Positions 7,552 through 29,820 of a stretch of 64,000 nucleotides of DNA are shown one piece after another. The DNA comes from Pigmentiphaga kullae (lineage in GTDB: Bacteria > Pseudomonadota > Gammaproteobacteria > Burkholderiales > Burkholderiaceae_B), in assembly GCF_004216695.1 (NCBI RefSeq), contig NZ_SGXC01000001.1:124001-188000 (forward strand). Direction: 5' to 3'. The notes under the pieces are model-generated. The model worked only from the letters and a program-made list of their open reading frames with translations. It was not told the origin of the DNA and did not search any database. A program made the position numbers and the translations under genes. The first letter of the stretch is position 1; each line of letters opens with the position of its first letter.

Positions 7552-7597
7552 GTGGACCTGGGCAGGCAGCCCTATCCGGACGGCTCCGAGCCCGGCG

Positions 7598-8894: not shown

Positions 8895-8904
8895 CTCAGG
8901 CCTC

Positions 8905-9807: not shown

Positions 9808-9834
9808 GGCCGGGGCCGCTCCAGTGAACATTTG

Positions 9835-14215: not shown

Positions 14216-14245
14216 GCTTGTCTCTCTATCCTTTGTCCGTGGGCC

Positions 14246-15157
14246 TCAAACCGGATCCCAGCTGAATACGTCTGCGGAGCGGTCCAGCGCGTAGAAACCG
14301 GAACGCATGGCGGGTATGGCATGCTCCGCGATCGCCTCGGGCGTCCATCCTTCGCTGCGTTGCACCGAGCGAAGCGGACGGTTCTGGCTGATCAGGAAGA
14401 GCTCATTGGCGCGCACGGCGAATATCTGTCCGGTCACGTCGCCGGCGGCTTCCGAGCCGAGGTAGACGATCATGGGAGCGATCTTGGCGGTCTCCATGGT
14501 CTTGATCTTTTCGACCCGGGCCTGCTCCTGCGGCGTGTCGGCGGGAATGGAGCCGATGAGCCGGCTCCAGGCGAAAGGACACACCGCGTTGGCGGTGACG
14601 CCGTAGCGCGCCATATCCAGGGCCACCGATTTCGCCAGCGCCACGGCGCCCAGCTTGGCCGCCGCGTAATTGGCCTGTCCGAAATTACCCACCAGCGCCG
14701 AGGCCGAAGTCATGAATACGTAGCGGCCGCCGTTGCGGGCCTTGAAGTGCGGTGCCGCCGCGCGGCTGACGTAGAACGAGCCGTTCAGATGCACATCGAC
14801 GACGGCTTTCCATTCTTCCACCGACATCTTGTGGAAGATGCGGTCGCGAACGATGCCGGCATTGTTGACCACCACGTCGAGCTGCCCGAAGTGGCGGATC
14901 GCGGTATCCACCATGTTCTGCGCCGAATCCCAATCCGACACCGAGTCGGTATTGGCAATGGCCTCTCCTCCGGCCGCGCCTATCTCGCGGACGACTTCGG
15001 CGGCCGGGCCGGAGTCGGTCCCGCTGCCGTCCAGCGCCGTGCCGAGATCGTTGACCACGACTTTCGCGCCATGCGCGGCCATGGCCAATGCAATGTCGCG
15101 GCCGATACCCCGTCCCGCGCCCGTCACGAGCGCGACTTTTCCATCCAGCATGCCCAT
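14246..15157 (-). CDS. SDR-family 3-hydroxyacyl-CoA dehydrogenase-like
   Basis: A 303-residue SDR with an intact set of motifs. These are TGAGRGIGRD (cofactor loop), VNNAG, an SA pair with the catalytic Ser (MTSASALVG) and YAAAKLGAVAL (Tyr-x-x-x-Lys). The segment VVVNDLGTALDGSGTDSGPA and the extended C-terminus resemble the dehydrogenase domain of peroxisomal multifunctional enzyme type 2 and related FabG-like hydroxyacyl-CoA dehydrogenases. The MFE-2 type works together with MaoC-type hydratases, and a MaoC gene occurs in the same operon. It would oxidise a hydroxyacyl-CoA to the keto form. It is separated by 30 bp from the lyase gene and 38 bp from the thiolase-like gene. Confidence 0.88.
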   Translation of the reverse strand: MGMLDGKVALVTGAGRGIGRDIALAMAAHGAKVVVNDLGTALDGSGTDSGPAAEVVREIGAAGGEAIANTDSVSDWDSAQNMVDTAIRHFGQLDVVVNNAGIVRDRIFHKMSVEEWKAVVDVHLNGSFYVSRAAAPHFKARNGGRYVFMTSASALVGNFGQANYAAAKLGAVALAKSVALDMARYGVTANAVCPFAWSRLIGSIPADTPQEQARVEKIKTMETAKIAPMIVYLGSEAAGDVTGQIFAVRANELFLISQNRPLRSVQRSEGWTPEAIAEHAIPAMRSGFYALDRSADVFSWDPV

Positions 15158-15195
15158 TGTCTTTCCTCAGTCTTCAGATGATGTGGCAGGCGGCA

Positions 15196-16350
15196 TCAAA
15201 GCGTGCCCGCGCTGCCGAAGAGCGCCGTGCACTGGCTCGACAGGACGGCGCCGTTGCCATGCGCCAGGCCGACGTCGCAGGAAGCAACCTGGCGCTCGCC
15301 GCACTCCCCGCGTATCTGCCGCACGATCTCTATCATGGCGAGCAAGCCGTACATGCCGGGGTGGCAGTACGACAAACCGCCGCCATTGGTGTTGACGGGC
15401 AGGCGCCCGCCCGGCGCGATCGCGCCATCGGCGACGAATGCGCCGCCATCCCCCTTCGCGCAGAAGCCCAGGTCCTCCAAGAACAAGATGGGCGTGATCG
15501 TGAAAGCGTCGTAGAGACCTAGAACGTCCACGTCGGCAGGCCCGAACCCCGCCATGGCGAAAGCCGCCTGCCCCGATTGGACGGCGCAGGTCGTGGTCAG
15601 CTCGGGCATGTTCGAAATCGTGCCGTGCCCCAGCGCTTCGCCCACCCCGAGCACATAGACCGGGGGTTTGCGCAATGAACGGGCGCGGCTCGCCGAGGTC
15701 AGCACCATCGCGCCGCCGCCATCCAGGACCAGACAGCAGTCGCGCACCGTCAACGGTTCAGAGACCATGCGCGACGACAGCACCTGCTCGACGGCGAGCG
15801 GCTCTTTCTCCCAGGCCTTGGGGTTCAGGAGCGCCCATTGCCTGGCCGCCACGGCCACTTCCGCGAGATGCCGGCGCGTCGTCCCGTATTCATGCATGTG
15901 GCGCGAGGCGGCCAGGGCATAGGCGCTGACCGGAAGCAGCGGCCTGAACGGATCCTCGTAGGGGTTCGGGTCGGGACGAGATGCCGTGGTCCGCGACACC
16001 GACCGCTGGGTGCTTCCATAGGCGATCAAGGCGACCTGGCAGGCGCCGGCCTCGATGGCCTGCACCGCATGGGCCACATGGGACATGAACGACGAGCCGC
16101 CGATCTGTGTGCCGTCGAAGCAGCGCGGCGAAATGCCCAAGTATTCCGCCAGCATCATCGGCCCGAACCGGACCTGCGCGCTGGCGACGAACAGGCCGTC
16201 CACGTCCCGCAGCGACAAGCCCGCGTCCGCCAGGGCCCGCGTCGTGGCCTGGGCCATCAGGTCCAGCGGCGTGGTGCCGGCCGCCATCTGACCGAGATCG
16301 GACTCCGCGATGCCGGCTACCGCCACGCGTCCGCGCATCGAAGCATTCAT
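15196..16350 (-). CDS. Thiolase-like protein of the SCP-x/Ltp2 type, no nucleophilic Cys
   Basis: A 384-residue thiolase-fold protein. The position of the acyl-accepting cysteine reads GGSSFMSH (residues 84-91), so the nucleophile is missing. Other conserved elements remain: LYDAFTI (Tyr280), GLSYCHPG (His330) and LAHGNGAV (residues 362-369). Loss of the cysteine is characteristic of Ltp2-type proteins, which with a DUF35 partner catalyse retro-aldol cleavage in steroid side-chain degradation instead of thiolysis. The DUF35 gene lies immediately upstream and overlaps by 4 bp, as in the known two-subunit aldolases. It is therefore more likely an acyl-CoA retro-aldolase subunit than an acetyltransferase. 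Confidence 0.85.
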   Translation of the reverse strand: MNASMRGRVAVAGIAESDLGQMAAGTTPLDLMAQATTRALADAGLSLRDVDGLFVASAQVRFGPMMLAEYLGISPRCFDGTQIGGSSFMSHVAHAVQAIEAGACQVALIAYGSTQRSVSRTTASRPDPNPYEDPFRPLLPVSAYALAASRHMHEYGTTRRHLAEVAVAARQWALLNPKAWEKEPLAVEQVLSSRMVSEPLTVRDCCLVLDGGGAMVLTSASRARSLRKPPVYVLGVGEALGHGTISNMPELTTTCAVQSGQAAFAMAGFGPADVDVLGLYDAFTITPILFLEDLGFCAKGDGGAFVADGAIAPGGRLPVNTNGGGLSYCHPGMYGLLAMIEIVRQIRGECGERQVASCDVGLAHGNGAVLSSQCTALFGSAGTL

Positions 16351-16799
16351 GGCTCTCGCTCCTCTCGGGGCGACGGCGAATCCGGCCCGTCGACGTCGAA
16401 TACCGGATAAGGCGGGCCTTCATCCGGACGATGAACGCGCATCCGTACGCGCATACCGATCCTGACCTCCGAAGCCGGGGTGCCTTCGACCCGGCTCATC
16501 AGCCGGAACCCTTCGTCCATGTCGATGAGCGAGACGTTCAGCGGCGCTTCACCGCGGTAATGAATCGTGGTGATGGCATGGACAGTGCCCGTCCCCGCCG
16601 AGATTTCCCATGCCAGGCCGCAGGCGCCCGTGCCCGGTGCGGTCACCCGTGGATAGAAGACGGCGCGGCCGGTCTCGGGCTCACGCTGGAACGCCAGCTT
16701 TCCTTGCTCGAGAAACGCCAGGTAACGTCCGTATGGCGATTCTTCGGCCAGGCGATTCAGACTGTCATAGGCGTAGTCGCCTGCTTGGGGTCGGCTCAT
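16347..16799 (-). CDS. DUF35 OB-fold protein, zinc ribbon lost
   Basis: A 150-residue DUF35 protein. DUF35 proteins normally have an N-terminal rubredoxin-like zinc ribbon (QRCxxCG and a later Cys pair) followed by an OB fold. Here the ribbon region reads LAFQREPETGRAVFYPR and only Cys60 survives, so zinc binding is improbable. The OB-fold part is intact (GTVHAITTIH, VSLIDMDEGFRLMSRVEG, IGMRVRMRV). DUF35 subunits stabilise and complete the active site of thiolase-like aldolases and of MaoC hydratases. It overlaps the thiolase-like gene and the next SDR gene by 4 bp each, so stoichiometric synthesis is expected. Confidence 0.85.
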   Translation of the reverse strand: MSRPQAGDYAYDSLNRLAEESPYGRYLAFLEQGKLAFQREPETGRAVFYPRVTAPGTGACGLAWEISAGTGTVHAITTIHYRGEAPLNVSLIDMDEGFRLMSRVEGTPASEVRIGMRVRMRVHRPDEGPPYPVFDVDGPDSPSPREEREP

Positions 16800-17695
16800 G
16801 CCTGGCCTCCCGCCTTGACGTCCACCGACCTCTGCCTGCGGTCCGCCTCGGTCTGCGCCTTGATCCGCTCACGCGACTCGCGCCATTGCTCGTCCCCCCA
16901 CTCCATGTAGTGGGTGAAATACGCGCCTTGCGCCAAGTGGTACGCGCCGTCTATGGCGATGGTCTCGCCGCTCAGCCATTCGCAGCCGTCCGCCATCAGA
17001 AAAGCCGCGAGGTTCGCCAGTTCGTGCATCTGGCCGAGCCGCCCCGAGGGGTTGTCCGCGATCTCGCGGGCGTGCGGGTCGCTCCCCGGGCGCAAGCGGG
17101 CCGTCGCACCCTCGGTCGGAAAGATCCCCGGCGCAATCGCGTTGAAGCGAATGCCATGGCGCCCCCACTCGGTGGCCAACGACTTGGTCATGGCGTCCAC
17201 CCCGGCCTTGGACATGGCCGACGGCACGACGAAGGGCGATCCGGTACGCACCCAGGTCGTGACGATGGAAAGCACCGACCCCTTTCTCTTTTGCTCGATC
17301 CAGCGCTTGCCGACCGATTGCGTCACATAGAAAGTGCCATGCAGCACGATGTTGGCAATGGCGTCAAAACCGTTCGCCGACAGGTCTTCGGTGCGGCTGA
17401 CGAAATTTCCGGCCGCATTGTTAACCAGGCCGGTCAGCGGGCCGTCTTCCCAGATCCGTGCCACCATCGCATCGACGGCCCTGGCGTCGCGTATGTCGAC
17501 GGCCACTGGAATGACCTGTCCCCCGTAGCGCTGTTGCAGTTCATCGGCGGCATCCCGCAGCACGCTCTCGCGCCGACCGCAGATGTACAGGGTGGCTCCC
17601 AGCTCCAGCAGCCGGCCGCCGATCTCCTTGCCGAGACCGGATCCGCCGCCGGTGACGAGAATCCGATGTCCCTTGAAAATGCCCGGTGCAAACAT
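16796..17695 (-). CDS. SDR-family oxidoreductase, 2,4-dienoyl-CoA-reductase-like
   Basis: A 299-residue SDR with TGGGSGLGKEIGGRL at the cofactor site, LVNNAAGNFVS, and FNAIAPGIFPTEGA. The NNAAGNF and PGIFPTEGA segments and the longer C-terminal tail resemble 2,4-dienoyl-CoA reductases (DECR/PECI type). These lack the standard Tyr active site; here the usual Tyr-x-x-x-Lys position reads SAMSKAGV, with Met in place of Tyr, matching that family. The enzyme would reduce a conjugated dienoyl-CoA using NADPH. It is the first enzyme gene after the two Bug receptors. Its presence suggests an unsaturated or ring-derived substrate. Confidence 0.85.
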   Translation of the reverse strand: MFAPGIFKGHRILVTGGGSGLGKEIGGRLLELGATLYICGRRESVLRDAADELQQRYGGQVIPVAVDIRDARAVDAMVARIWEDGPLTGLVNNAAGNFVSRTEDLSANGFDAIANIVLHGTFYVTQSVGKRWIEQKRKGSVLSIVTTWVRTGSPFVVPSAMSKAGVDAMTKSLATEWGRHGIRFNAIAPGIFPTEGATARLRPGSDPHAREIADNPSGRLGQMHELANLAAFLMADGCEWLSGETIAIDGAYHLAQGAYFTHYMEWGDEQWRESRERIKAQTEADRRQRSVDVKAGGQA

Positions 17696-17724
17696 GTCCT
17701 ATTCGTTCCTTAGTGAGGCGAAGG

Positions 17725-18681
17725 CTAGTCTTCCGACAGGCCGAGTTCCTGGATCTTCTGTCGGTAGACGGTGTCCTGCTCGGCGATGAGCCGTTCGAAT
17801 TCCTGCCTGGAGGATGCATTGAGTTCGAAGCCCGCGGCGCGCGCCGCCTGCGCGACTTCTTTGTTGACCAGCGCCTTGTTGACGATCTCATGCAAGCGAT
17901 CGGCCGTGACGGGCGGCACGCCAGCGGGGCCAAACAGCCCGGCCCATGGCACAATGTCCAAGGGAGGAACGCCCAATTCGGCCAGCGTGGGGGTGTCGGG
18001 CAGCAGCTCCGCGCGCCGCGGTCCCATGACCGCGAGGGCGCGCAATCGGCCGCTCTCCACGTAGGGAATCCCCATGGTCGTCGCAACGATGGCTTGCACG
18101 CGCCCCGCGATGATTTCCTGGATGGCGGGTGGCTCTCCCTTGAACGGGACTCGGGTCATCTCCAACCCCGATTTCTGGCTCAGATGGGCAAAGGCCATCA
18201 GGTTGGTGTTGGAGCCTGTTCCGTAGTTGTACTGGCCCGGCTTGTGCTTGACCTGGGCGACGAACTCGGCGTAGTTGCGCGCCGGAAAGCTCGCGCTCGT
18301 GTACAGCAGATAGGTGTAGCGCCCGACGTCGGCGATGGTGGTGAAGTCCCGATGGACTTCATAGGGCGGCTGGCGGCGAATGTGCGGCGCGATGGACAGA
18401 TTGCCGGAGGTGGCGAACAGCAGCCGGCAGCCATCGGGCTTTGCCTTGAGCACGTCAAGCGCCGCGATCTGGCCTTCGGCGCCGGGCTTGTTCTCGACAA
18501 CGATGGCCGTGGCAAGCTGCTTGCCCATGTCCTTGGCAAGCGCGCGGGCAATCGTATCGGTGGTCGAACCGGCGGGAAACGGCGCGACCAGCGTGATGAC
18601 GGAGCAGTCGGCCGCTTTCGCGGCAGAAGCGGCGGCGAGCAGAGCCAGGACGGCGCCGCGCGCGAATCGGGCGATGAGCAT
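17725..18681 (-). CDS. Bug/TctC-family receptor (second in operon)
   Basis: A 318-residue periplasmic binding protein. The signal peptide spans residues 1 to about 23 (AVLALLAAASAAKA). The mature N-terminus, ADCSVITLVAPFPAGSTTD, lacks the DYP-type start of most Bug proteins but keeps IVVENKPGAEG and YVESGRLRALAVMG. GGGAGAA precedes the start. Tandem Bug genes usually mean two related ligands or a gene duplication with divergence; the two here are clearly different. It is 30 bp downstream of the first receptor and 30 bp upstream of the SDR gene, so it is cotranscribed with the catabolic genes and probably binds a substrate or intermediate of the pathway. Confidence 0.9.
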   Translation of the reverse strand: MLIARFARGAVLALLAAASAAKAADCSVITLVAPFPAGSTTDTIARALAKDMGKQLATAIVVENKPGAEGQIAALDVLKAKPDGCRLLFATSGNLSIAPHIRRQPPYEVHRDFTTIADVGRYTYLLYTSASFPARNYAEFVAQVKHKPGQYNYGTGSNTNLMAFAHLSQKSGLEMTRVPFKGEPPAIQEIIAGRVQAIVATTMGIPYVESGRLRALAVMGPRRAELLPDTPTLAELGVPPLDIVPWAGLFGPAGVPPVTADRLHEIVNKALVNKEVAQAARAAGFELNASSRQEFERLIAEQDTVYRQKIQELGLSED

Positions 18682-18710
18682 CGGAAGTTCTCCCTATCGT
18701 TCGTTGGCGC

Positions 18711-19706
18711 CTAGAGCTGTTCGATCTTTGCGCTCTTGACGATGCGCGACCACAACTCGATCTCTTCCTTCTGGCGGGTGCGGAGCGCGGCAGCTCCGCC
18801 GCCCGGGACTTCCGCGCCGCGCTCGGTGAAGAACTTGCGGGCGGCGGGATCGTTGGCGATCTTGGCGAACAATTGTTCAAGCCTGGCGAGCCGGGCCGCG
18901 GGAACCTGGGCCGGCGCAACAGCCGCGACCCAGGTGGAGGCCACGAAGTCGGGAAGACCTGCCTCGGCCGTAGTAGGCACGCTGGGAAGCAGCGGGAGCC
19001 GTTCCCGGGATGCTACGGCCAGAGCCTGAATCGTTCCGCCCTGCACCGACCCCAGCGCGCTCGTCGCGTCGACGATCGAAAAGTCGACTTCCTTGCCGAT
19101 CAGCGCATTGAGCGCCGCGCCCACGCCTTTATAAGGAATCGCGCGAGCGGTGAAGGACGCCTTTTCCTGGAGCAACTCACCCATCAACTGATAGCTCGTC
19201 GCACCGGCGGCGTAGTTCAACGAATCGGGTTTGGCGCGGCCGGCCTTCACCAGCGCTTCGATGCTGGAGCGCTCGGACCCCACGGGTACGGCGATGACGC
19301 TCGGCACCGAAGCCATCATGCCCAATGCCGCCAGATCCTTGAGCGGATCGTAGGGAAGAGCCCGGTACAGCGCGACGTTGGTTGCCAGGATGGAGGTCGT
19401 TCCCACCAGCATCGTGTAGCCATCGTGCGGCGCGTTCAGCACGGCGCTGACACCGATGAGACCATTTCCGCCCGCCTTGTTCTCCACGACGACCGACTGG
19501 CCCGTCTCCTCACCCAGCCGCTTGGCGTAATAGCGGGCGGCAATGTCGGTGATACTGCCGGGCACGAACGGAACGACGAACCTGATGGAGCGGGAAGGAA
19601 AATCATCGGCCACCGCCGTGCCGCCAGCCGCGCCGGCCGCTATCGCGAATGCAAGGGCCAGCATGCGAGGGAGCAAGCCGGCGCGTGGGCGTTGGGAAAA
19701 GAACAT
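18711..19706 (-). CDS. Bug/TctC-family receptor (first gene of the 12-gene operon)
   Basis: A 331-residue periplasmic receptor with a long signal peptide (MLALAFAIAAGAAGGTAVA). The mature part begins DDFPSRSIRFVVPFVPGS and contains VVVENKAGGNG. AGGAGA lies upstream of the start. The usual ligand-loop segment (VQGGTIQALAVASRERLP) and a C-terminal helix pair are present. It is the first gene of the leftward operon, directly downstream of the intergenic space holding the left copy of the 71-bp repeat, so its promoter must lie within 19707-19889. No TctA/TctB permease accompanies it, as is frequent for Bug proteins in Bordetella relatives. Confidence 0.9.
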   Translation of the reverse strand: MFFSQRPRAGLLPRMLALAFAIAAGAAGGTAVADDFPSRSIRFVVPFVPGSITDIAARYYAKRLGEETGQSVVVENKAGGNGLIGVSAVLNAPHDGYTMLVGTTSILATNVALYRALPYDPLKDLAALGMMASVPSVIAVPVGSERSSIEALVKAGRAKPDSLNYAAGATSYQLMGELLQEKASFTARAIPYKGVGAALNALIGKEVDFSIVDATSALGSVQGGTIQALAVASRERLPLLPSVPTTAEAGLPDFVASTWVAAVAPAQVPAARLARLEQLFAKIANDPAARKFFTERGAEVPGGGAAALRTRQKEEIELWSRIVKSAKIEQL

Positions 19707-19818
19707 GATCGTCTCCTGTGCGACTGGCTACGCCAGCCATGGCCTTGTTGTGAGGCTATGGTAGGAGGACGATCCATGCTCGTCTAACACTTAAATTCGC
19801 ATGATTAAGACCTAACAG

Positions 19819-19889
19819 ATCTTTATTGCCACGACTGGGTCAGCGCATACGATGGGAATCGTTCTTGTCAATATGCTCCACCCTGCGCA
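19819..19889 (+). repeat. 71-bp direct repeat, left copy (degenerate Fur-regulated promoter)
   Basis: These 71 bp match 24365-24435 in the same orientation at 58 of 71 positions by hand count, without gaps. Twelve of the 13 differences are transitions. The -35-like TTGCCA is kept, but the -10 has decayed to TACGAT (19848-19853). The Fur-box register falls from 14 to 11 matches of 19 compared with the right copy. The copy ends exactly where the stop codon of the leftward LysR gene begins. It points toward that gene's 3' end and so has no function there that I can see. It is most likely the scar of a duplication, insertion or recombination at the fec-type promoter. Confidence 0.8.
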
Positions 19890-20777
19890 CTAGTCGTAGT
19901 CCTTCAGAAATTCGGCAACCAGGCCCACGAACGCCTGCGTGACCAGCGAACGGGGCTTTCCCGCCGGAAACAGCATCGCGAAGTCATTGAAGAAGGCCGG
20001 CTCGAACCGGCGCGCGACCACGCCGCGGCCCGAGAAATCGTGAGCCGTGACGGGATCGACGATGCTGTAGCCCACGCCTTCGGCCACGAACGCGCACATC
20101 GACGCGAACAGCGGCGTCTCGACCTTGATCGACAAGGTGGCACCGTTCTCGGCGAACAGCTCCTGCAGGCGCTGCGTGCGGATGTGGTCGCGCGGCGCGG
20201 TCACGATGGGTAGTCCGCTCAGGTCGGCCGGGCGAATGACCTCGTTGCCCGCCAGCGGATGCTGCGCGGGCAGGACACAGACGCAGCGCAGGCGCAGTTT
20301 TTCGGCGTCGACCCAGCCTGGGTCATACGCCGTCTCCGAGAATCCGATGTCGAACTGCTGGGTGGTGACCAGGGTCACGACCGTGGGGGAGCTGCGTGCC
20401 TGCAAGGTAACGTTGACGCCCGGATAGTCCCGCAGGAAGTGGGCGGCGACGCGCGGCAGGAACTCGAGCGCCAACATCGGAAGCGCCGCGATCCGCAAGC
20501 TGCCCGCCTTCGCATCGCGGATATCTGCCGCCAGCTGCTCTATGCCGCCCAGCCCTTGAAGCGCGCCCACCACCGCGCCGTGCAGATACTTGGCCTCTTC
20601 GGTAGGCTGCAGGCGGTTCTTTTCGCGCACGAACAGGCCAAAGCCAAGGTCGGACTCCAGCCCCGCTATCAGGGTGCTGATGGCGGGCTGCGACAACCCG
20701 AGCCGCGCGGCGGCCCCCGTCACGGTTCCCGCGACCATCACTGCGTGGAAAGCCTCGAGCTGACGCACTTTGAACAT
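19890..20777 (-). CDS. LysR-family regulator of the dipeptidase/oxidase cassette
   Basis: A 295-residue LysR regulator. The HTH is in MFKVRQLEAFHAVMVAG and AARLGLSQPAISTLIAGLE. The style (AVMVAGTVTGAAARLGLSQPAIS) matches the OccR/NocR group, which senses amino-acid-like compounds. It is divergent from the Bug-dipeptidase-oxidase genes, with 132 bp between starts, and is the natural regulator of that cassette. Its stop codon sits directly against the left 71-bp repeat, so the gene forms one exact edge of the cassette. Confidence 0.9.
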   Translation of the reverse strand: MFKVRQLEAFHAVMVAGTVTGAAARLGLSQPAISTLIAGLESDLGFGLFVREKNRLQPTEEAKYLHGAVVGALQGLGGIEQLAADIRDAKAGSLRIAALPMLALEFLPRVAAHFLRDYPGVNVTLQARSSPTVVTLVTTQQFDIGFSETAYDPGWVDAEKLRLRCVCVLPAQHPLAGNEVIRPADLSGLPIVTAPRDHIRTQRLQELFAENGATLSIKVETPLFASMCAFVAEGVGYSIVDPVTAHDFSGRGVVARRFEPAFFNDFAMLFPAGKPRSLVTQAFVGLVAEFLKDYD

Positions 20778-20909
20778 GGCGGGACCAGGTATAGGCGATT
20801 TTTATGGATTCAGAAAAAAACAGGATTGGATCGCGGATTTCGGCGTCTGTATGCTGGGGACAGTAGCGCATCCACAGAAATGATAGTGCTCGAACCCGGG
20901 GGAAGAATC

Positions 20910-21911
20910 ATGAAACATGCAACAGCGTGGGGCTTGAAGTTCTCTCTGGAGGCGTCGATGGCCGCGGTCGTGGCGGGCGGGCTGGCCTTCGCGCCCGGCG
21001 CAGGCGCGGCCGACGACTACCCCAGCCGGCCGATCCGCATGCTGGTCGGCTTCTCGGCGGGTGGCGCCACCGACCTGTCCGCGCGCATGATCGCGCTGCA
21101 ACTGTCCGAGCGGCTCGGGCAGTCGGTCGTCGTGGAAAACCGTCCCGGCGCAGGCGGCAGCATCGCGGCCAGCGCCGTGGCGAAGGCTCCCGCCGACGGC
21201 TACACCCTTCTTTACACCTCGGCGGCCCACGCCATCAATGCCGCGCTCTACAAATCGCTGCCCTTCGATCCCGTGGCCGATTTCCAGCCCATCACGACGG
21301 TGACCACCACGCTCAATGCGCTGATCGCCCACCCGTCCCTGCCTGTGCGCGGCGCCGCGGAGTTCATCGCCTATGCGAAGGCGGCCCCGGGCGGCGTCAG
21401 CATGGCCTCGACCGGCATCGGCTCGTCCAGCCACATGGCGCAGGTCCTGTTCACCAGCATGGCCGGCATCAAGGTCAATCACGTGCCCTACAAGGGCACG
21501 GGCGAAGCCATACGCGACATCGTTTCCGGCGAGGTCAAGGTCACCATCGACGCCGTCACCGCCTACCTGCCTTACCTGAGGAACGGCAGCCTCAAGGTGG
21601 TCTGCCTGGGCGACGTCCGACGCAGCGCGCTGCTGCCCGATGCCCCCACCTGCGACGAGACGGGCCTGCCGGGCTACGCGGTCAGGAGCTGGCAGGGCGT
21701 GCTCACCACGGCCAACGTCCCGCGCAATATCGTCGACCGGCTCAATCGCGAGATCAACGCGATCCTGAAGTCGCCAGAAACGATCCGGCAGATGCAGGCA
21801 GCGGGCGCCCGTCCGCTGGGTGGCACGCCGGAGGAGTACGCGGCGATCATCAAGCAGGACATCGCGAAGCTCAAGGAACTGGTCTCCCTGGCCGGCATCC
21901 AGCCTCAATAA
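20910..21911 (+). CDS. Bug/TctC-family receptor of the D-amino-acid-type cassette
   Basis: A 333-residue periplasmic receptor. The signal sequence is long (KFSLEASMAAVVAGGLAFA, cleavage near GAGA). The mature part begins DDYPSRPIRMLVGFSAGG and contains VVVENRPGAGGS and YLPYLRNGSLKVVCLG. The start at 20910 follows GGGGGAAG; an in-frame ATG at 20880 lacks a comparable site. It is divergent from the LysR gene and 13 bp upstream of the dipeptidase-like gene, so it is the first gene of a three-gene operon. It likely binds the compound processed by the two enzymes, plausibly an N-acylated or peptidic amino acid, but this is inferred from context. Confidence 0.9.
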   Translation: MKHATAWGLKFSLEASMAAVVAGGLAFAPGAGAADDYPSRPIRMLVGFSAGGATDLSARMIALQLSERLGQSVVVENRPGAGGSIAASAVAKAPADGYTLLYTSAAHAINAALYKSLPFDPVADFQPITTVTTTLNALIAHPSLPVRGAAEFIAYAKAAPGGVSMASTGIGSSSHMAQVLFTSMAGIKVNHVPYKGTGEAIRDIVSGEVKVTIDAVTAYLPYLRNGSLKVVCLGDVRRSALLPDAPTCDETGLPGYAVRSWQGVLTTANVPRNIVDRLNREINAILKSPETIRQMQAAGARPLGGTPEEYAAIIKQDIAKLKELVSLAGIQPQ

Positions 21912-21924
21912 GACGGGGACAACC

Positions 21925-23145
21925 ATGAACAGACCGACTCCCACGGCGGCCCAGGCAGAGGAAACCGCCCGCCGCATCCACGCCGAGCACATCGTCATCG
22001 ATTCGCTCGCGCCCAGCTTCGTCGACGAATGGGCGCTGACGCCCGCCATGATCGAGATCGGCAAGGCCTTGCAGGCCCAGGGCGGCTCGCGCCCGGCCAT
22101 CAAGAAGGCCATGGCCGAACATCTCATCGCCCAGTGCGCGCAGGATCCCGAAACGCGCGAAACCTATCTTTCGTACTGGCGGCGCTCGGGTGTCACGGCA
22201 TGCAACTACACCTTGTACGCATCCGGTCCGCCCGACACTGCCCTGGATGCGACGATCACCAGCGCGCGGCGCGCCGCAACGCTCATGGCCTCGCTGGGCG
22301 GACAGGTGACGCTGGCCACCAACGCCGCGCAACTCGAAGCCGCGCACCGCGACGGCCGGCACGCCGTCATGTACAACCTGCAGAACGCCGAGCCCGTCGG
22401 GGCCGACCTCGATCGGGTGGAAGTCCTGCACGAACTCGGCGTGCGCAGCATGCAGCTCACGTACAACCTGCGCACCCGCTTCGCCGACGGCTGCCTGGAG
22501 ACGAACGACGGCGGCCTGAGCCGCTTCGGCGCCGCGCTGATCGAGAAGATGAATGCGTGCCGCATGATGGTCGACCTCTCGCACGCCAGCGCGAACACAG
22601 CGCGCGACGCGGTGGCCGCATCCAGGACGCCGATCGTGGCCACCCACACCGCCGCCCGCGCGCTCAGCGGCCACCCCCGAGGCCTGCCCGACGACGTACT
22701 GAAGGGCATCGCCAACGGCGGGGGCTACGCCGGCGTGGTGGTGCTGCCGGCCTTCATCCTGCCGGCCGAAGGCGACGGCCGCGCCGAGAAACACGGCAAG
22801 CCGCGCAGCTGGGCCACGCTCGACACCGTCGTCGACCACCTCCAGCACCTGGTCAATGTGATGGGCGAGGATCACGTCGGCGTCGGTACCGACTGGGGCA
22901 AGCCCTACTACAACGCACTGGCCTGGACGCCGTCGATGATCCGGCCCGAGAGCGGCAGTTTCAACTGGGTAGGCTGGCGCCCGCAGGACCGCTTCGATCC
23001 GAACGCGCAGACCCTGGACCTGGAAACCTGGGACAAGTGGCCCAACCTGACCGCCGCCATGCTGCGCCGGGGCATGGCCGAATCCACCGTCGTCAAGATC
23101 GTCGGCGCGAACTACATGCGCGTATTCCGCGAGATATGCGGATAG
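21925..23145 (+). CDS. M19 (renal-dipeptidase-like) metallohydrolase with altered metal site
   Basis: A 406-residue TIM-barrel protein of the M19 dipeptidase family. Recognisable ligands are His220 in DLSHAS, His241 in VATHTAARAL and Asp323 in GVGTDW. The first-site motif of classical enzymes (HxD in DGHND) is replaced by IDSLAP (residues 25-30). The bridging glutamate is apparently Gln153 (NLQNAEPVG). A normal binuclear zinc centre is therefore unlikely; either one metal remains or the chemistry differs. No signal peptide is present, so it is cytoplasmic. M19 enzymes hydrolyse dipeptides, including ones with a C-terminal D-residue, which suits the D-amino-acid-dehydrogenase-like partner overlapping its 3' end. 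Confidence 0.85.
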   Translation: MNRPTPTAAQAEETARRIHAEHIVIDSLAPSFVDEWALTPAMIEIGKALQAQGGSRPAIKKAMAEHLIAQCAQDPETRETYLSYWRRSGVTACNYTLYASGPPDTALDATITSARRAATLMASLGGQVTLATNAAQLEAAHRDGRHAVMYNLQNAEPVGADLDRVEVLHELGVRSMQLTYNLRTRFADGCLETNDGGLSRFGAALIEKMNACRMMVDLSHASANTARDAVAASRTPIVATHTAARALSGHPRGLPDDVLKGIANGGGYAGVVVLPAFILPAEGDGRAEKHGKPRSWATLDTVVDHLQHLVNVMGEDHVGVGTDWGKPYYNALAWTPSMIRPESGSFNWVGWRPQDRFDPNAQTLDLETWDKWPNLTAAMLRRGMAESTVVKIVGANYMRVFREICG

Positions 23146-24380
23146 CGGCAACGCCATCGCCCGGCCCGGAACAGCGTATCGCCGTGATAGGCGCGGGCAT
23201 CGTCGGCGCATGTATCGCTCATGCCTTGCGCCGACGTGGCGCCGACGTCGTGCTGATCGACCGTGACGAGCCTGGCCGCGGTTGCAGCTTCGGCAACCTG
23301 GGCGCGATCAGCATGAGTTCCGTCGCCCCGCTGGCCATGCCCGGCATCCTGGCCTCGCTGCCCAGCATGCTGCGCGATCCCGAAAGCCCGCTATTCCTTC
23401 CCCTGGGCTACCTGCCTCGAGCGCTGCCCTGGCTGCTCAGGTTCCTGGCGTCGGCCCGCGCCGCCAAGGTCGCGGAAGCGTCGCGCACGCTGGCACGCCT
23501 GCACGCCGGCGCCGTCGCGGCGCACCAGGCCCTTGCCCGCGAAGTCGGCGTCCCGGAACTCATCCTTCAGCGCGGCCAGCTTCACCTCTATCCCGACAGC
23601 CGTGCCCACGCCCAGGACGAAGCCGCGTGGCGGCTACGCGCCTCGCACGGCTTGCCCTTCACGCTGCTCGACCGTCCCGGCATCCTGGAACTGGAACCGC
23701 ATGTGGGCAAGCGCTACACGGTTGGCGTATTCCTGCCCGACGACGGAACCATCCTCAATCCGCTGCGCTATGTCCAGGCCATCGTGCGGGCGTTCGCCGC
23801 GCGCGGCGGCGAGGTACGGCGCGACGAGGTGCGGGCGCTCAAGCGCGACGGCCAAGGATGGGAGCTGGTTTGCGGGCGCGGCAGCGAACGCTTTTCCCGC
23901 GTCGTCGTGGCGGCCGGCGGGTGGTCGACGCGCCTGCTGGATCCGCTCGGCATACGGCTGCCGCTGGAAAGCCAGCGCGGCTATCACGCACAGTTCTCGG
24001 GCTGTGCCGGGCTGGTCTCGCGCTCGGTGGTGCTGGCCGACCGCAAGATATTCCTTGCCCCCATGGAGGACGGACTGCGGGTAGGCGGCACGGTCGAGAT
24101 CGCGGGCCTCGACCGTCCCCCGGACATGCGCCGCGCGCGCCTGCTCGAACGCATCGTGCGCGAAACCTTCGACGGACTGGCTAACGCAACGGCTACGCAC
24201 TGGATGGGCCATCGTCCCTGCATGCCCGATTCGCTGCCCGTCATCGGCCCGGCCACCGAGCCAGGTCTCTGGCTGGCGGTGGGACACGGTCATCTTGGCA
24301 TGACCGACTCGGTCAATACCGCGCGGAGGATTGCGGATGGGATGCTGGGGCCGGATGTCGAGCCATCTTTATTGCCATAA
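23136..24380 (+). CDS. FAD-dependent oxidoreductase, D-amino-acid dehydrogenase (DadA)-like
   Basis: A 414-residue flavoprotein of the D-amino-acid oxidase superfamily. The dinucleotide-binding motif is VIGAGIVGACIAHALRRRGADVVLID. The family C-terminal segments are MGHRPCMPDSLPVIGPA and VAVGHGHLGMT-like (LAVGHGHLGMT). DadA-type enzymes deaminate D-amino acids and pass electrons to the respiratory chain. The start at 23136 overlaps the dipeptidase gene by 10 bp in another frame. Its last codons (SLLP and the stop) are encoded inside the right 71-bp repeat, and the stop TAA directly follows the -35 of the fecI-like promoter. The present C-terminus may therefore be a product of the rearrangement that created the repeat. 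Confidence 0.88.
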   Translation: MRIAATPSPGPEQRIAVIGAGIVGACIAHALRRRGADVVLIDRDEPGRGCSFGNLGAISMSSVAPLAMPGILASLPSMLRDPESPLFLPLGYLPRALPWLLRFLASARAAKVAEASRTLARLHAGAVAAHQALAREVGVPELILQRGQLHLYPDSRAHAQDEAAWRLRASHGLPFTLLDRPGILELEPHVGKRYTVGVFLPDDGTILNPLRYVQAIVRAFAARGGEVRRDEVRALKRDGQGWELVCGRGSERFSRVVVAAGGWSTRLLDPLGIRLPLESQRGYHAQFSGCAGLVSRSVVLADRKIFLAPMEDGLRVGGTVEIAGLDRPPDMRRARLLERIVRETFDGLANATATHWMGHRPCMPDSLPVIGPATEPGLWLAVGHGHLGMTDSVNTARRIADGMLGPDVEPSLLP

Positions 24381-24435
24381 TCAGGTCAACGCATATAATG
24401 AGAATCGTTCGCATCAATATGCTCCACCCCGCGCA
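24365..24435 (+). repeat. 71-bp direct repeat, right copy (functional-looking fec promoter)
   Basis: This is the intact-looking copy of the element also found at 19819-19889. It covers the last five codons of the oxidase gene, a sigma-70 promoter and a Fur-box-like sequence, and ends 8 bp before the FecI-like sigma start. The two copies enclose exactly the LysR-Bug-dipeptidase-oxidase cassette (19890-24364). Confidence 0.8.
24372..24412 (+). promoter_or_regulatory. Sigma-70 promoter with overlapping Fur box for the FecI-like operon
   Basis: The -35 is TTGCCA (24372-24377) and the -10 is a perfect TATAAT (24394-24399), with a 16-bp spacer. TATAATGAGAATCGTTCGC (24394-24412) matches 14 of 19 positions of the Fur consensus GATAATGATAATCATTATC and covers the -10, so iron-loaded Fur would block the promoter. 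This is the expected control for an iron-starvation sigma factor. Confidence 0.75.
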
Positions 24436-24443
24436 GGCCCCAC

Positions 24444-24968
24444 ATGCCCTCCGGCGACACCACCGTCAAGTTCCACGCCCTGTACAGCGACCACCACGGC
24501 TGGCTGCAGGGCTGGCTGCGCCGGCGCGTGGGCCACGCGGGGGATGCGGCCGACCTGGCGCATGACACCTTCCTGCGCATCCTGCTGACGGGAAGAGCGC
24601 CGGAGGCCGACCAATCGCGCGCCCACCTGACGCAAGTCGCCAAAGGTCTGGTGATCGACCTCCACCGCCGTCGGCTGGTGGAAGCCGCCTATCTGGAGGC
24701 CCTGGCGCACCGGCCTCAGGCGCAGGTCCCCTCGGCTGAACAACGGGCGCTGATCATCGAAGAACTGCTGCTGGTGGACCGCGTGCTGGGCGCGCTGCCG
24801 GCCAAGGTGCGCCAGACGTTCCTGCTGTCGCAGCTCGACGGACTGACGTATTCCCGGATCGCCGAAACCCTGGGCATTTCATTCGCCACGGTGCGCAAGT
24901 ACATGCTGCGGACGGCGCAATCGCTGCACGCAGCCATGTTGGCCGCGGAAGGGGGGAACGAGCGATGA
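24444..24968 (+). CDS. FecI-like ECF sigma factor (iron starvation)
   Basis: A 174-residue sigma factor. Region 2 contains GDAADLAHDTFLRILLTG. Region 4 contains KVRQTFLLSQLDGLTYSRIA, with the HTH ending FATVRKYMLRTAQSLH. This combination (HDTFLR, QLDGLTYxxIAxxLG) is the FecI subgroup. It is followed with a 4-bp overlap by a FecR-like gene and a TonB-dependent receptor with an STN domain, the full cell-surface-signalling set. In this family the sigma is activated when the receptor binds its ferric ligand, and then transcribes the receptor gene. Its own gene is predicted to be Fur-repressed through the box in the upstream repeat. Confidence 0.93.
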   Translation: MPSGDTTVKFHALYSDHHGWLQGWLRRRVGHAGDAADLAHDTFLRILLTGRAPEADQSRAHLTQVAKGLVIDLHRRRLVEAAYLEALAHRPQAQVPSAEQRALIIEELLLVDRVLGALPAKVRQTFLLSQLDGLTYSRIAETLGISFATVRKYMLRTAQSLHAAMLAAEGGNER

Positions 24969-25981
24969 GTGCCGCGCATGCTTCACCGGCCCCGGAATCT
25001 TCCGGCGTCCCGGAGTCCGCGGTGCAGCGGGCGCTGGAATGGCAGGTGACATTCTGGTCGGGCGAAGTCACGCCGCGCGAGCGCGCCGCATTCGACCGCT
25101 GGCTGGCGCAGGACACCGACCATGCGCGGGCCTGGAGCCAGGTACAACGCACCGGCCAGCGCGTCCGGTCGCTGACCGGACCGGTGGAAGGCGAAGCGCT
25201 GCGCGCGGCGGATGACGCGCGTCGGGCCGCCACCCGCCGCACCCTGCTGCGGACCGCGGGATTGTTCGCGACAGCAGGCGTGGCCGCCTACGCGGCGCGA
25301 AACACGGCACCGATGCAATCCATGCTGGCCGAGCATCGCACGAGCCGCGGCGAACGCCGGGACCTGCTGCTGCCCGACGGCACGCGCCTGGTGCTCAACA
25401 CCGACAGCGCGATCGACCTGCGGTTCACGGCGCAGGCGCGCGACGTGCTCCTGCGCACGGGCGAGGTCTTCATCGCGACGGCGCCGGACCCGCTGGGCTC
25501 CGGGGGTCTTGCCTCGCGCCCTTTCACCGTACATACCCGGCACGGTGCCGTGCGGGCCATCGGCACGCGATTCACCGTGCGGCTGTCCGACGGCAGATCG
25601 ATGGCGTCGGTCGACGAAGGCGCGGTGCGGATCCAGCCGCTCCTGGCCGCCGCGGGCCCGGTACGGCTTGAAGCGGGACAGCGTGCATGGTTCTCCGCGT
25701 CGACGGTGGACTCGCCGGGGGCATCCTTGCCTGGGGATTCCGCCTGGACACGTGGACGGCTGGTGGCCGAGCGCATGCGGTTGCGGGACTTCCTGGCGGA
25801 GTTGGGCCGCTATCGCAGCGGCCTGCTGCGCTGCGACCCGGCGGTGCAGGACCTCGTCGTCTCCGGCGTGTACCCGCTCGACGATACGGACCTGGCCCTG
25901 TCGACCCTGGCCCATGCGCTGCCGGTGCGCATCGACAGCGTGACGCGGTACTGGGTGACGGTCCGCGCGCGGGCGGGTTAA
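24965..25981 (+). CDS. FecR-like transmembrane anti-sigma/signal transducer
   Basis: A 338-residue FecR protein. The cytoplasmic N-terminal DUF4880 part contains RALEWQVTFWSGEVTPRERAA-type sequence and the motif FDRWLAQDTDHARAWSQV. A single transmembrane segment lies about residues 92-108 (LLRTAGLFATAGVAAYA). The periplasmic FecR domain contains LLLPDGTRLVLNTDSAID and VHTRHGAVRAIGTRFTV. The C-terminal part is the STN-contacting region. The N-terminal part holds or activates the sigma factor; the periplasmic part contacts the receptor STN domain. It starts within the sigma gene and is 121 bp upstream of the receptor gene, where a FecI-type promoter would be expected. Confidence 0.92.
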   Translation: MSAAHASPAPESSGVPESAVQRALEWQVTFWSGEVTPRERAAFDRWLAQDTDHARAWSQVQRTGQRVRSLTGPVEGEALRAADDARRAATRRTLLRTAGLFATAGVAAYAARNTAPMQSMLAEHRTSRGERRDLLLPDGTRLVLNTDSAIDLRFTAQARDVLLRTGEVFIATAPDPLGSGGLASRPFTVHTRHGAVRAIGTRFTVRLSDGRSMASVDEGAVRIQPLLAAAGPVRLEAGQRAWFSASTVDSPGASLPGDSAWTRGRLVAERMRLRDFLAELGRYRSGLLRCDPAVQDLVVSGVYPLDDTDLALSTLAHALPVRIDSVTRYWVTVRARAG

Positions 25982-26102: not shown

Positions 26103-28598
26103 ATGCATCCGCGCCACCGCAGCCGACCCCATACCCCGCCCTCTTGCCCGCGCACGCCGCTGGCGCGCGCGGCGCTGATGCTCTGCCTGGCGGCGGGCAC
26201 GCTGGCACTGCCCGCCGCGACCCGGGCCCAGGCCGCGGCGCAAGGCGATGCGGTACTTCGGCACGAGATTCCCTCGGGCACGCTGGACCAGGCACTCAAT
26301 CGCTTCGCCGCCGCCGCGGGTATCACGCTGTCGATCGACGGCTCGCTCACCGCCGGCAAGACCAGCCGGGGCCTGTCGGGCAATTTCGGCGTACGCGACG
26401 GCCTGGCGCATCTGCTGGCCGGCTCGGGGCTGGAAGCCGTGGCCACGGCCGGCGGTGGCTATGTCCTGCGCGCCGCGCCGCTCCTGCCATCGGCCAGCGA
26501 TACGATGCTGCCGACCATCACCGTGACGGCGCGCGGCGAATCCGAAGCCGAACTTCCGCCGCCGTACGCCGGCGGACAGGTCGCGCGCGGCGGCCGGCTG
26601 GGCCTGCTGGGCAATCAGGACGTGATGGACACGCCCTTCAATGTGGCGAGCTACACCAGCGAACTGATGCAGAACCAGCAGTCAGCCACCCTTGCCGATG
26701 TCCTGGACAACGACCCCGCCGTGCGCATGAGTTCGCGCGGGCGCAATACCAGCGTGGGCGGCGGCGACAACTTCTTCCTGCGCGGCTTCGGACTGGGCAA
26801 CCGCGATATCTCTCTCAATGGCCTGTACGGCGTCCTGCCCTATGGCACGCTGTCGCTGGAAACGGTAGAACGCGTGGAGGTGCTCAAGGGTCCCAGCGCG
26901 CTGTTGACAGGCATGGCCCCCAGCGGTGGAGTGGGCGGAGCCATCAACGTGGTGCCCAAGCGCGCGACCGACGCGCCCATCACGCGGCTGACGGGCAGCT
27001 ATGCCTCTGATTCGCTGTGGGGAACGCATGTGGACCTGGGCCGGCGATTCGGCGAACAGAATCAGTTCGGCGTGCGGGCCAATGGCGTCTATCGCAGCGG
27101 AGACACCGCGACGTCGGGACAATCGGTCAAGCTGGGCGCGGCGTCGCTGGGCCTGGACTACCGGGGCGAGCGGCTTCGCGCCTCGCTGGATCTCGGATAC
27201 CAGTCCGACGACGCGCGCGCCGCGTCCGTGGGCTATCGCCTGGCGCCCGCGCTCACGGCCGTGCCCGCCGCGCCGAAGACCGGCGCGCGCTTCGCCCAGG
27301 ACTGGGAACGGCGCAAGTATGTGGACGACTACCAGGTCGCGCAAATGGAGTTCGACGTGTCGTCGTCGCTCATGGTCTACGGCGCCGCTGGCGCGCGCGA
27401 CCACCGCCACAGCAACTACCGCACCGAGTCTCGCATCCTCAACCCGGCGGGTGATCTTGCCACTTCGCCCGTCAACTATCCGGAAACATCCAAGTCCAAA
27501 TCGTTCCTGGCGGGCGCCCGGATGAAGTTCGAGGCGCTGAACGCCCTGCACGAAATCAACGTGGCGGCATCCTCGCTGGACACCACGGCCGGTTACGGAT
27601 TTGCACAATGGGCGGGTACCGCCTCCAACCTGTACAACCCCGCCAGGATCCCGGACCCGCTGCAAGCCGGCGCGCCGTTCGCGGGCTTTCTGGATACCCG
27701 CAAGGCCTCGGAAACGCAGTTGTCGTCGGTGGGCATCTCGGACAGCATTTCCTGGAACGACGATGCGGTGCGGCTCATTCTGGGCGTGCGCCGGCAGAAG
27801 ATCAGCGTGGACAACTATGCGGCCACCGCGCCCGTGAATCCGCGCACTTCCGGCTACGAACGCACGGTCAACTCGCCCGCTGTCGGCCTGGTGGTCAAGC
27901 CCTGGAACCACGTCTCGCTGTATGCCAACTACATCGAAGGGCTGAGCCCCGGCGCCACCGCACCGGCCGATGCCGAGAACAGCGGAGAGACCTTTCCGCC
28001 GGTCAAGACCAAGCAGAAGGAACTGGGCGCCAAGATCGACTTCGGACGGGTGATCGGCACCGTATCCCTCTTCGAGCTCAAGCAGCCCAACGCGATCACC
28101 GTGCCCGGCAGCACGCCGCTGGCCTATCGCTACGTGATGGACGGGGAACAGCGCAACCGGGGGATGGAACTCAGCGCCTTCGGCGAACTGGCGCGCGGCG
28201 TGCGGCTGCTGGGGGGCATGACCTACCTGCAGGCCAAGCAGATACGCACGCAGGGCGGTACCAACGACGGCAAGGACGCCATCGTGGCGCCGCGCTGGAT
28301 CGCCAACGTCGGCCTGGAGTGGGACGCCCCCTTCCTGCCCGGCCTGACGCTGACCACGCGCGTGCTCGCCACCGGCAAGCAATACGTCAATGCGGCCAAC
28401 ACCCTGCGGCTGCCCGGCTGGACCCGCTGGGACGCCGGCGCGCGCTACCGGACGCGGGCGCTCGGGTACCCCGTCACCCTGCGCGCGAACGTGCTGAACC
28501 TGGCCAACAGCAGCTACTGGGAAGGCAGCGCGGGATCCGGCGGCATCGTCCTGTCGGCGCCGCGCACGGTCTACCTCTCGGCCACGATCGACTTCTGA
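26103..28598 (+). CDS. TonB-dependent ferric-siderophore receptor with STN signalling domain
   Basis: An 831-residue outer-membrane receptor. The signal peptide covers about residues 1-45. The STN domain spans about residues 50-125 (HEIPSGTLDQALNRFAAAAG, LSGNFGVRDGLAHLLAGSG). The plug begins near ITVTARGE and contains RGFGLGNRDISLNG, then VERVEVLKGPSALLTGM. The C-terminal 22-strand barrel ends with YLSATIDF, the usual terminal aromatic residue. The STN domain shows it signals to FecR as well as transporting. The plug segments are of the FhuE/FpvA siderophore type, so a hydroxamate or mixed siderophore taken from other microbes is likely; the ligand is unknown. The preceding intergenic 121 bp hold A+T-rich runs but no promoter I could define. 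Confidence 0.92.
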   Translation: MHPRHRSRPHTPPSCPRTPLARAALMLCLAAGTLALPAATRAQAAAQGDAVLRHEIPSGTLDQALNRFAAAAGITLSIDGSLTAGKTSRGLSGNFGVRDGLAHLLAGSGLEAVATAGGGYVLRAAPLLPSASDTMLPTITVTARGESEAELPPPYAGGQVARGGRLGLLGNQDVMDTPFNVASYTSELMQNQQSATLADVLDNDPAVRMSSRGRNTSVGGGDNFFLRGFGLGNRDISLNGLYGVLPYGTLSLETVERVEVLKGPSALLTGMAPSGGVGGAINVVPKRATDAPITRLTGSYASDSLWGTHVDLGRRFGEQNQFGVRANGVYRSGDTATSGQSVKLGAASLGLDYRGERLRASLDLGYQSDDARAASVGYRLAPALTAVPAAPKTGARFAQDWERRKYVDDYQVAQMEFDVSSSLMVYGAAGARDHRHSNYRTESRILNPAGDLATSPVNYPETSKSKSFLAGARMKFEALNALHEINVAASSLDTTAGYGFAQWAGTASNLYNPARIPDPLQAGAPFAGFLDTRKASETQLSSVGISDSISWNDDAVRLILGVRRQKISVDNYAATAPVNPRTSGYERTVNSPAVGLVVKPWNHVSLYANYIEGLSPGATAPADAENSGETFPPVKTKQKELGAKIDFGRVIGTVSLFELKQPNAITVPGSTPLAYRYVMDGEQRNRGMELSAFGELARGVRLLGGMTYLQAKQIRTQGGTNDGKDAIVAPRWIANVGLEWDAPFLPGLTLTTRVLATGKQYVNAANTLRLPGWTRWDAGARYRTRALGYPVTLRANVLNLANSSYWEGSAGSGGIVLSAPRTVYLSATIDF

Positions 28599-28605: not shown

Positions 28606-29820
28606 ATGCGCTTACGGCCGGCAATCGCGCGGCTGCACCGCTGGATCGGACTGGTGACCGCGGGCTTCCTGCTGGTCGCGGGCCTGACCGGTGCGCTGTT
28701 GGCCTGGTACGACGAGCTGGATGCCTTGCTCGCACCACGGCTGTTGACGGCGCACCCGTCTCCCGGCGCCGCGCAGCCGCTGGATGCCCTGGCGCTGCGC
28801 GCACGGGTGGCGCAGGCGTATCCGCACCGGCGGGTCAACCATGTACCGTTGAGCCAACCTCCAGGCCGCTCGGCGGTCTTCTTTGCCGCGCCCGGTCCTG
28901 ACGATACCGACAAGCCTGTCCCGCCGGTGGCGCAGGTGCTGGTCCAGCCCTATACCGGCCAGGTGCTCGGCGACCGTGTCCTGGGGCAGGCCGCACCTGG
29001 CGTCCGGTACATCATGCCCTTCATCTATCGCCTACACCATTCGCTGGCGCTGGGCTTGGCGGGCACGCTGATGCTGGGCGCCGCGGCGCTGCTCTGGACG
29101 GTGGACTGCTTCGTCGGCCTGTGGCTGACCCTGCCGGCCGCTTCGGCCTCGCCGCGGCGGGCCGGCGGAATGGCCGGCAAATCCTGGCTGCGGCGATGGA
29201 TGCCTGCGTGGTGGGTACGCTGGCAAGGCGGCAGCTACAAACTCACGTTCGACCTGCATCGGGCGGGCGGCCTCTGGGTCTGGGCCGCACTCTTCGTTTT
29301 CGCGTGGAGCAGCGTTGCGTTCAACCTGGCGCCGGCCTACGACGCGGTCATGGCACGCGGCGGCCTGTCGTTCCAGGCCACCACGCGCTCATTGCCGATG
29401 CTGGCTGTACCGCAAGTTCAGCCCGGTCTGAGCTGGCAACAGGCGCTGGAGACTGGCCGACGATTGATGGGACAGCAGGCGTCGTCAAGGGGATTCTCCG
29501 TGCACCGCGAGGATCTGCTGTACTACGACCCACGGCGCGCGCTGTTCAGCTACTACGTGCTCAGCAGCCTGGACGTGCGCGAGCGCGTGGGCCGTACTGT
29601 CGTCGCCTTCGATGGCAACACGGGCGAGCTGCGTCTGTCCTGGTTTCCCACCGGCGCCGCCAACGGCGACACGATCACCAGTTGGCTGGCCGGCCTGCAC
29701 ATGGCTGCGCGGTGGGGTTGGCCGCTTCAGGCGCTCGTTGCGATGGCCGGGGTGATGGTCGCCATGCTGAGCGCGACGGGCGTCCTGGTCTGGCGGCGGA
29801 AGGTAAGGGTTCGCAGGTGA
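28606..29820 (+). CDS. PepSY-domain inner-membrane protein (siderophore/iron reductase-like)
   Basis: A 404-residue protein of the PepSY-associated transmembrane family (PiuB/FoxB/FsqB-like). The first transmembrane helix is in IARLHRWIGLVTAGFLLVAGLTGALLAW. Others lie near GLAGTLMLGAAALLWTVDCF, LWVWAALFVFAWSSVAFN and LQALVAMAGVMVAMLSATG. PepSY folds occupy the two periplasmic stretches. It starts 7 bp after the receptor stop and is thus cotranscribed. Proteins of this family next to siderophore receptors reduce or release iron from the imported ferric siderophore at the inner membrane; histidines in the first and third helices could ligate haem. The role here is inferred from the neighbourhood. 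Confidence 0.88.
   Translation: MRLRPAIARLHRWIGLVTAGFLLVAGLTGALLAWYDELDALLAPRLLTAHPSPGAAQPLDALALRARVAQAYPHRRVNHVPLSQPPGRSAVFFAAPGPDDTDKPVPPVAQVLVQPYTGQVLGDRVLGQAAPGVRYIMPFIYRLHHSLALGLAGTLMLGAAALLWTVDCFVGLWLTLPAASASPRRAGGMAGKSWLRRWMPAWWVRWQGGSYKLTFDLHRAGGLWVWAALFVFAWSSVAFNLAPAYDAVMARGGLSFQATTRSLPMLAVPQVQPGLSWQQALETGRRLMGQQASSRGFSVHREDLLYYDPRRALFSYYVLSSLDVRERVGRTVVAFDGNTGELRLSWFPTGAANGDTITSWLAGLHMAARWGWPLQALVAMAGVMVAMLSATGVLVWRRKVRVRR

Follow-up and report, generated by a model that had tools for sequence, protein, structure and literature searches.

A probable fec operon-start relic at a spot where Pigmentiphaga species appear to swap gene clusters

In the genome of Pigmentiphaga kullae, four genes lie exactly between two 71-bp direct repeats, the second of which is the promoter of a fec-like operon. 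This arrangement raises the question of whether the repeats belong to the four-gene cassette, as the ends of a mobile unit, or to the genes on either side of it. A sequence-only reading of the locus had proposed that the cassette entered at the fec promoter, possibly as a mobile unit without its own recombinase. We compared the window, by which we mean the whole 64,000-nucleotide stretch analysed (contig NZ_SGXC01000001.1, positions 124,001 to 188,000), with the corresponding places in 11 Pigmentiphaga genomes, including its own (G000). In our preferred reading, to which we give roughly two chances in three, the left repeat is the relic of a fec operon start at a spot where Pigmentiphaga species swap gene clusters, and the modules now found there were stacked by recombination.

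A repeat search aligned the left (P_L) and right (P_R) copies over 71 nucleotides with no gaps and 58 identical positions (82%), the same figures as had been read from the sequence. Used as a query against the whole 6.2-Mb genome, P_R found just these two places, with E values of 6.5e-31 and 2.3e-13, which puts the pair far beyond chance. Over the 69 columns compared, the copies differ by 12 transitions and one transversion, in keeping with the earlier view that the left copy has decayed mainly by transitions. A promoter scan gave TTGCCA-16-TATAAT in P_R (11 of 12) and TTGCCA-16-TACGAT in P_L (9 of 12). P_R stands ahead of the fecI, fecR, TonB receptor and PepSY genes, which bears out the assignment of the right copy as the promoter of the fecI-like operon; its putative Fur box is a dyad recognised by eye in the sequence. 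The gene content of the cassette was likewise confirmed, since Pfam finds only LysR, TctC/Bug, Peptidase_M19 and DAO proteins between the repeats. As had been described, the last base of P_L adjoins the LysR stop codon (19890–19892) and P_R begins in the last codons of the oxidase gene (Table 1).

Table 1. Features of the window around the two repeats.
Feature	Position	Strand	Basis and remarks
LF block, left-flank catabolic cargo	7548..19818	mostly minus	Pfam
LF genes: MaoC, LysR, CoA-transferase III, AMP-binding ligase, lyase, two SDRs, thiolase, OB-fold protein, two TctC/Bug			Pfam
P_L, left repeat	19819..19889	+	Probable fec promoter relic; TTGCCA 19826-19831, TACGAT 19848-19853; without fecI behind it in the window
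Cassette LysR-family regulator	19890..20777	-	Pfam LysR_substrate and HTH_1; stop codon abuts P_L
TctC/Bug substrate-binding protein	20910..21911	+	Pfam TctC; start codon from sequence/frames
M19 membrane-dipeptidase-like protein	21925..23145	+	Pfam Peptidase_M19; start codon from sequence/frames
DadA-like FAD oxidase	23136..24380	+	Pfam DAO; start codon from sequence/frames; last codons and stop inside fec promoter region
P_R, right repeat	24365..24435	+	fec promoter; TTGCCA 24372-24377, TATAAT 24394-24399; Fur-box-like dyad just after
fecI-like ECF sigma factor	24444..24968	+	Pfam Sigma70_r2, Sigma70_r4_2
fecR-like regulator	24965..25981	+	Pfam FecR, DUF4880
TonB-dependent receptor with STN domain	26103..28598	+	Pfam STN, Plug, barrel
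PepSY-TM protein, last gene of fec-like operon	28606..29820	+	Pfam PepSY_TM

By Pfam, the fec-like operon carries an ECF sigma factor, FecR and an STN-bearing TonB receptor in FecIR order. It resembles FecIR-type iron uptake operons in joining these three genes and a PepSY-TM gene in that order, and Comamonas composti and Ottowia thiooxydans have the same four-gene order; it differs from such operons in that an oxidase gene ends inside its promoter. The sequence-only reading had seen no transposase, and our Pfam scan of the 29 window proteins encoded from 2652 to 35304 found neither a transposase nor an integrase. The sole tRNA gene of the window is at 44350–44425.

With P_R as the query, six of the 11 Pigmentiphaga genomes gave promoter matches, G000 at two places and G002, G006, G007, G008 and G009 at one each; a second copy in G009 and a shortened left copy in G006 lie outside that match list and were found on reading the loci. 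None of the promoter matches in the genus lies away from this locus, and none marks a second site bounded by the repeat. The other five genomes have neither a promoter match nor an M19 match at E ≤ 1e-130.

The interval from the end of the gene at 7547 to the LysR gene or the promoter shows five different arrangements in the six matching genomes. In the window, the backbone up to 7547 is followed by the LF genes, P_L, the cassette, P_R and the fec operon. G006 has a window-like order, but its left copy is only about 32 bp long and is followed by about 23 bp of other sequence. In G009, the backbone leads through 5.0 kb to the LF genes, a left copy of 69 bp and 34 bp of fecI; then come other genes over about 10.5 kb, the cassette and the right copy. 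G008 has 734 bp between the backbone and the cassette, and G002 has 14.6 kb of other genes there; in both, the cassette is followed by the right copy and the fec operon. G007 is without the cassette: its backbone runs through 2.7 kb, with TetR-, SDR- and thiolase-type genes as read from the translations, straight to the promoter and the fec operon. The LF genes are present at about 93–97% identity in G006 and G009 and are absent from the corresponding place in G002, G007 and G008.

Several smaller observations concern the sequence around these modules. The stretch left of the cassette in G008 (L010:3941-4674) reads as a LysE-type gene, and a 57-bp piece similar to it lies right of the broken fec operon of G009 (L033); the two may be remnants of past shuffling. 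Between backbone and cassette, G002 (L034, L008) has an open frame of 3909 amino acids, which we take to resemble a filamentous haemagglutinin-type protein and which adjoins an ECF-sigma-like gene. To the right of the fec operon, most of the window stretch 29860–35346 is without a match in G006 and G008 at this place; G002 shares the window sequence to 33471, the end of the compared stretch, and G007 shares pieces of it.

The cassette is present in five of the 11 genomes and is joined to the fec promoter every time. The earlier claim that it entered at this promoter is supported: G007 has the promoter and fec operon without it, beside other genes, and in all five cassette genomes the DadA gene ends inside the fec promoter region. 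The -10 region contains the DadA stop codon in G006, G008 and G009; in the window and G002, this codon adjoins the -35 hexamer. Among three more distant DadA proteins, two at 63–64% identity (from Cupriavidus and from G086, a genome of another genus of the family) end sooner, and that of G001, at 49%, has an equally long tail. A DadA–promoter joint common to all five argues that the cassette reached the upstream edge of this promoter only once.

The left repeat follows the LF genes (7.6–19.8 kb) and not the cassette. All three LF genomes have P_L in full or in part (window, 71 bp; G009, 69 bp; G006, about 32 bp), and both cassette genomes that lack LF, G002 and G008, are without it. A near-full match to the LF gene at 18711–19706 and its promoter (92–100%) was found in three of the 11 genus genomes, the remainder giving short stretches only, mostly of related Bug genes. 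The LF promoter was found in no other of 268 family genomes; four genomes matched, the match in G002 being to the fec promoter only.

This distribution bears directly on whether the cassette could be a mobile unit with 71-bp repeat ends, moved by a recombinase supplied from elsewhere. In the window, the repeats do fit the four genes exactly. However, the window is the only one of the five cassette genomes with full repeat copies directly at both cassette ends, in G002 and G008 the cassette occupies the same joint with no left copy at its other end, the promoter matches of the genus all lie at this locus with no second repeat-bounded site, and the related gene cluster of G086 is without such a repeat. 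We thus regard a mobile unit of this kind as very improbable. The proposal that the repeats bound the cassette is unsupported for the further reason that the left copy accompanies LF and, in G009, runs into fecI. Composite transposons and repeat-bounded cassettes likewise hold genes between two direct repeats; here there is no transposase among the proteins scanned, the repeats do not travel with the four genes, and one of the two is most likely what is left of a promoter.

The sequence-only reading had named the arrangement that would favour entry of a repeat-bounded cassette, namely the gene at 18711–19706 joined to a single promoter copy without the cassette, and this was found in none of the 11 genus genomes. 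The nearest approach is G009, in which LF adjoins the promoter and a fecI fragment, and about 10.5 kb separate these from the cassette. The same reading had held that it would be refuted if most relatives had the four genes and a single promoter copy in synteny, with the left repeat absent or explained as another gene's regulatory region: the repeat is absent from two of the four other cassette genomes, while G006 keeps a shortened copy and G009 a copy far from the cassette.

The nature of the left copy is indicated by what lies behind it in G009. There, P_L is directly followed, on the same strand, by 34 bp matching nucleotides 93–126 of fecI, with 31/34 identities to fecI of G000 and G002, 32/34 to that of G006 and G008, and 30/33 to that of G007. 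Against the G000 gene, the piece scores 28, the best of 1000 shuffles scoring 15. This fecI piece is known from one genome, G009, whose estimated contamination is 8%. Because the G009 copy runs into fecI sequence, the left copy looks like the start of a former copy of the fec operon, and we read P_L as most probably what remains of such a start. Two further candidate remnants did not hold: the 22 bp after the shortened left copy of G006 are not supported as fec sequence, as 613 of 1000 shuffles score as well, and a 26-bp fecR-like match in G009 is, judged by eye, likely a chance similarity inside the coding sequence of a Bug gene.

P_L is probably without function. The evidence, though weak, speaks against a regulatory role of P_L for the LF genes: G006 has lost about half of the repeat and retains the LF promoter. 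Between the window and G009, P_L differs at 7 of 69 sites and the adjoining bases at 3 of 113 (Fisher p = 0.044), all three of the latter differences falling within the six bases next to P_L. A trimmed local alignment that omits two of them gives 1/111 and p = 0.0055, a stronger contrast than the full count of 3/113 sustains. The comparison hints weakly that P_L is drifting.

A fec operon start could also have been left behind if the operon had been duplicated in tandem at this spot and its first copy had then been largely deleted, the cassette being situated between the two. Such a history would account for the presence of two promoters and for the fecI remnant behind one of them. Deletion of a fec operon has also occurred in the genus: beyond the right copy of G009, the start of fecI passes into the end of the PepSY gene across an 11-bp overlap (L033, about 13.8 kb), so that the operon has been lost there by deletion between short matching stretches in the two genes, with the overlap as the joint. 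By itself, however, tandem duplication leaves the position of the cassette between the copies unexplained, and no genome has two close fec copies, the five genus members with a close FecR (86–100%) giving one match each. We consider this course of events decidedly unlikely.

In a tree of rpoB and its flanks, G002 falls outside G009, G000 and the pair of G006 and G008 (support 0.87); G000 groups with G006 and G008 at 0.956, and G006 with G008 at 0.993. G008 thus lies inside the LF-bearing group, and it has either lost LF and P_L, or LF has moved between species. Along the backbone (4726–7540), the window is 96.0–96.4% identical to G006 and G008 and 94.0% to G002. For the TonB receptor gene, the window is 99.6% identical to G002 and 91% to G006 and G008, which points to a recent exchange between species.

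The change of allegiance can be followed through the cassette at 439 sites where G002 differs from a base shared by G006 and G008. From 19890 to 20389, the window is G006/G008-like at 18 of 24 sites. It is then mixed up to 22139 (48 sites G002-like, 38 G006/G008-like, one other), and from 22140 to 25981 it is G002-like at 246 of 328 sites (70 G006/G008-like, 12 other), with three 250-base bins, at 23890, 24890 and 25890, contrary or even. The cassette of the window is thus a mosaic of two alleles, and this pattern suggests that homologous recombination has placed crossovers within both the cassette and the fec operon. The earlier suggestion of entry by duplication or homologous recombination was therefore right in that homologous recombination acts here, and unsupported in taking the repeats as the bounds of the cassette.

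The age of the left copy relative to the cassette bears on a second way of doubling the promoter. Here, an ancestor with LF, promoter and fec operon would have received a fragment or circle carrying the cassette, the promoter and the fecI start, integrated by a single homologous crossover. This is the idea of the sequence-only reading with a longer original repeat, in that promoter and fecI start would be doubled around the cassette. The product, LF followed by promoter, fecI start, cassette, promoter and fec operon, would also explain the fecI piece in G009, and the cassette is indeed an addition upstream of fec relative to G007. On the other side, G002, which lies outside the other four cassette genomes (0.87 by rpoB), is without LF and P_L, so that an extra loss is needed. 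If it dated from the arrival of the cassette, P_L should moreover fall outside all five right copies. The three trees that keep the five right copies together are 9–10 log units worse, with p-AU of 0.027–0.039 on 71 columns (5000 resamplings, which the program warned were too few), but two of them are retained when 50 or 56 columns are used. In the promoter tree itself, 93% of bootstraps on all 69 columns place the left copies with P_R of the window and of G002, but either grouping receives 35% when the columns are cut to 44. As the grouping changes with the columns used, this tree is weak evidence only, and the origin of P_L is poorly dated; the tree leans towards a left copy that was not made when the cassette arrived. 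On balance, a single-crossover integration of this kind seems unlikely to us.

The four-gene cluster itself has relatives elsewhere. M19 matches at E ≤ 1e-130 occur in six of 268 family genomes, one each: the five cassette genomes at 94–100%, all at this locus, and G086 at 62%. Homologues of the LysR, Bug, M19 and DadA genes (61–63%) are ordered in G086, and oriented relative to one another, as they are here, and the 18 kb examined there contain neither a fec gene nor a match to the promoter. At order level, six of 399 genomes, including the window's own and G086, have an M19 match at E ≤ 1e-140. In three of the other four (from two families; G587 was left out), a Bug gene at 52–53% adjoins the M19 gene, a comparison in which only matches above 45% identity are visible and weaker LysR or DadA relatives would not show. 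Given the same cluster in G086 and the Bug–M19 pairs elsewhere in the order, the cluster is older than this locus. A plasmid origin of LF, the cassette or fecIR was not borne out: none of the plasmid records covers 80% of either query, with partial matches in 93 and 28 records, and the best record, from Cupriavidus campinensis, has only a DadA homologue (64%) in the 13 kb examined.

We propose the following course of events for the stacking of modules that we favour. The interval from 7547 to the fec promoter would be a cargo-exchange spot whose content is turned over by ordinary recombination. The four-gene cassette would be one cargo module, already attached to the fec promoter at its upstream edge by the time the five species that carry it diverged. 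LF would be another, whose right end brought its own copy of the fec promoter and the fecI start. The two were presumably joined side by side later, when an LF–promoter–fecI allele recombined with a cassette–promoter–fec allele through one homologous and one non-homologous joint. Deletion of the first fecI start would have followed, the left repeat remaining as a scar, and the cassette and fec operon of the window would also have exchanged DNA with a G002-like lineage by homologous recombination. Counting against this stacking, none of the 11 genus or 268 family genomes showed LF attached to an intact promoter and fec operon in the absence of the cassette.

Homology-facilitated illegitimate recombination combines one homologous with one non-homologous joint. 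It would give modules side by side with a leftover fecI start, as here; the difference is that at this locus only the presumed products, and not the event, are visible. Among the matches listed for the Pigmentiphaga genome literature, judged by title and start of abstract, nothing concerns this locus.

Chromosomal hotspots of gene transfer that lack mobile elements and are driven by recombination are described in an excerpt of Oliveira et al. 2017 (PMC5635113). As far as that excerpt goes, our locus resembles them in its variable content and its signs of recombination, a likeness drawn at this interval alone. Gene content differs between conserved flanks, with five arrangements in six genomes; the part scanned has no recombinase gene, and the flanking operon bears signs of homologous recombination. 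It differs from the hotspots of the excerpt in that species of a genus, and not strains of one species, are compared, and in that the right anchor is an accessory iron-uptake operon with a promoter relic left as a scar.

For the interpretation of such loci, it follows that a gene cluster can be enclosed exactly by direct repeats without being mobile, as a repeat can be a scar carried by the neighbouring genes. We further suggest, as a speculation that we hold rather doubtful, that the iron-uptake operon, with its species-swapped receptor, serves as the recombination anchor, each swap dragging along or exchanging the adjoining catabolic cargo. If so, selection on the receptor would drive the turnover of unrelated metabolic genes, and promoter relics next to iron-uptake operons would be countable scars, usable as markers of past cargo stacking at recombination-driven hotspots.
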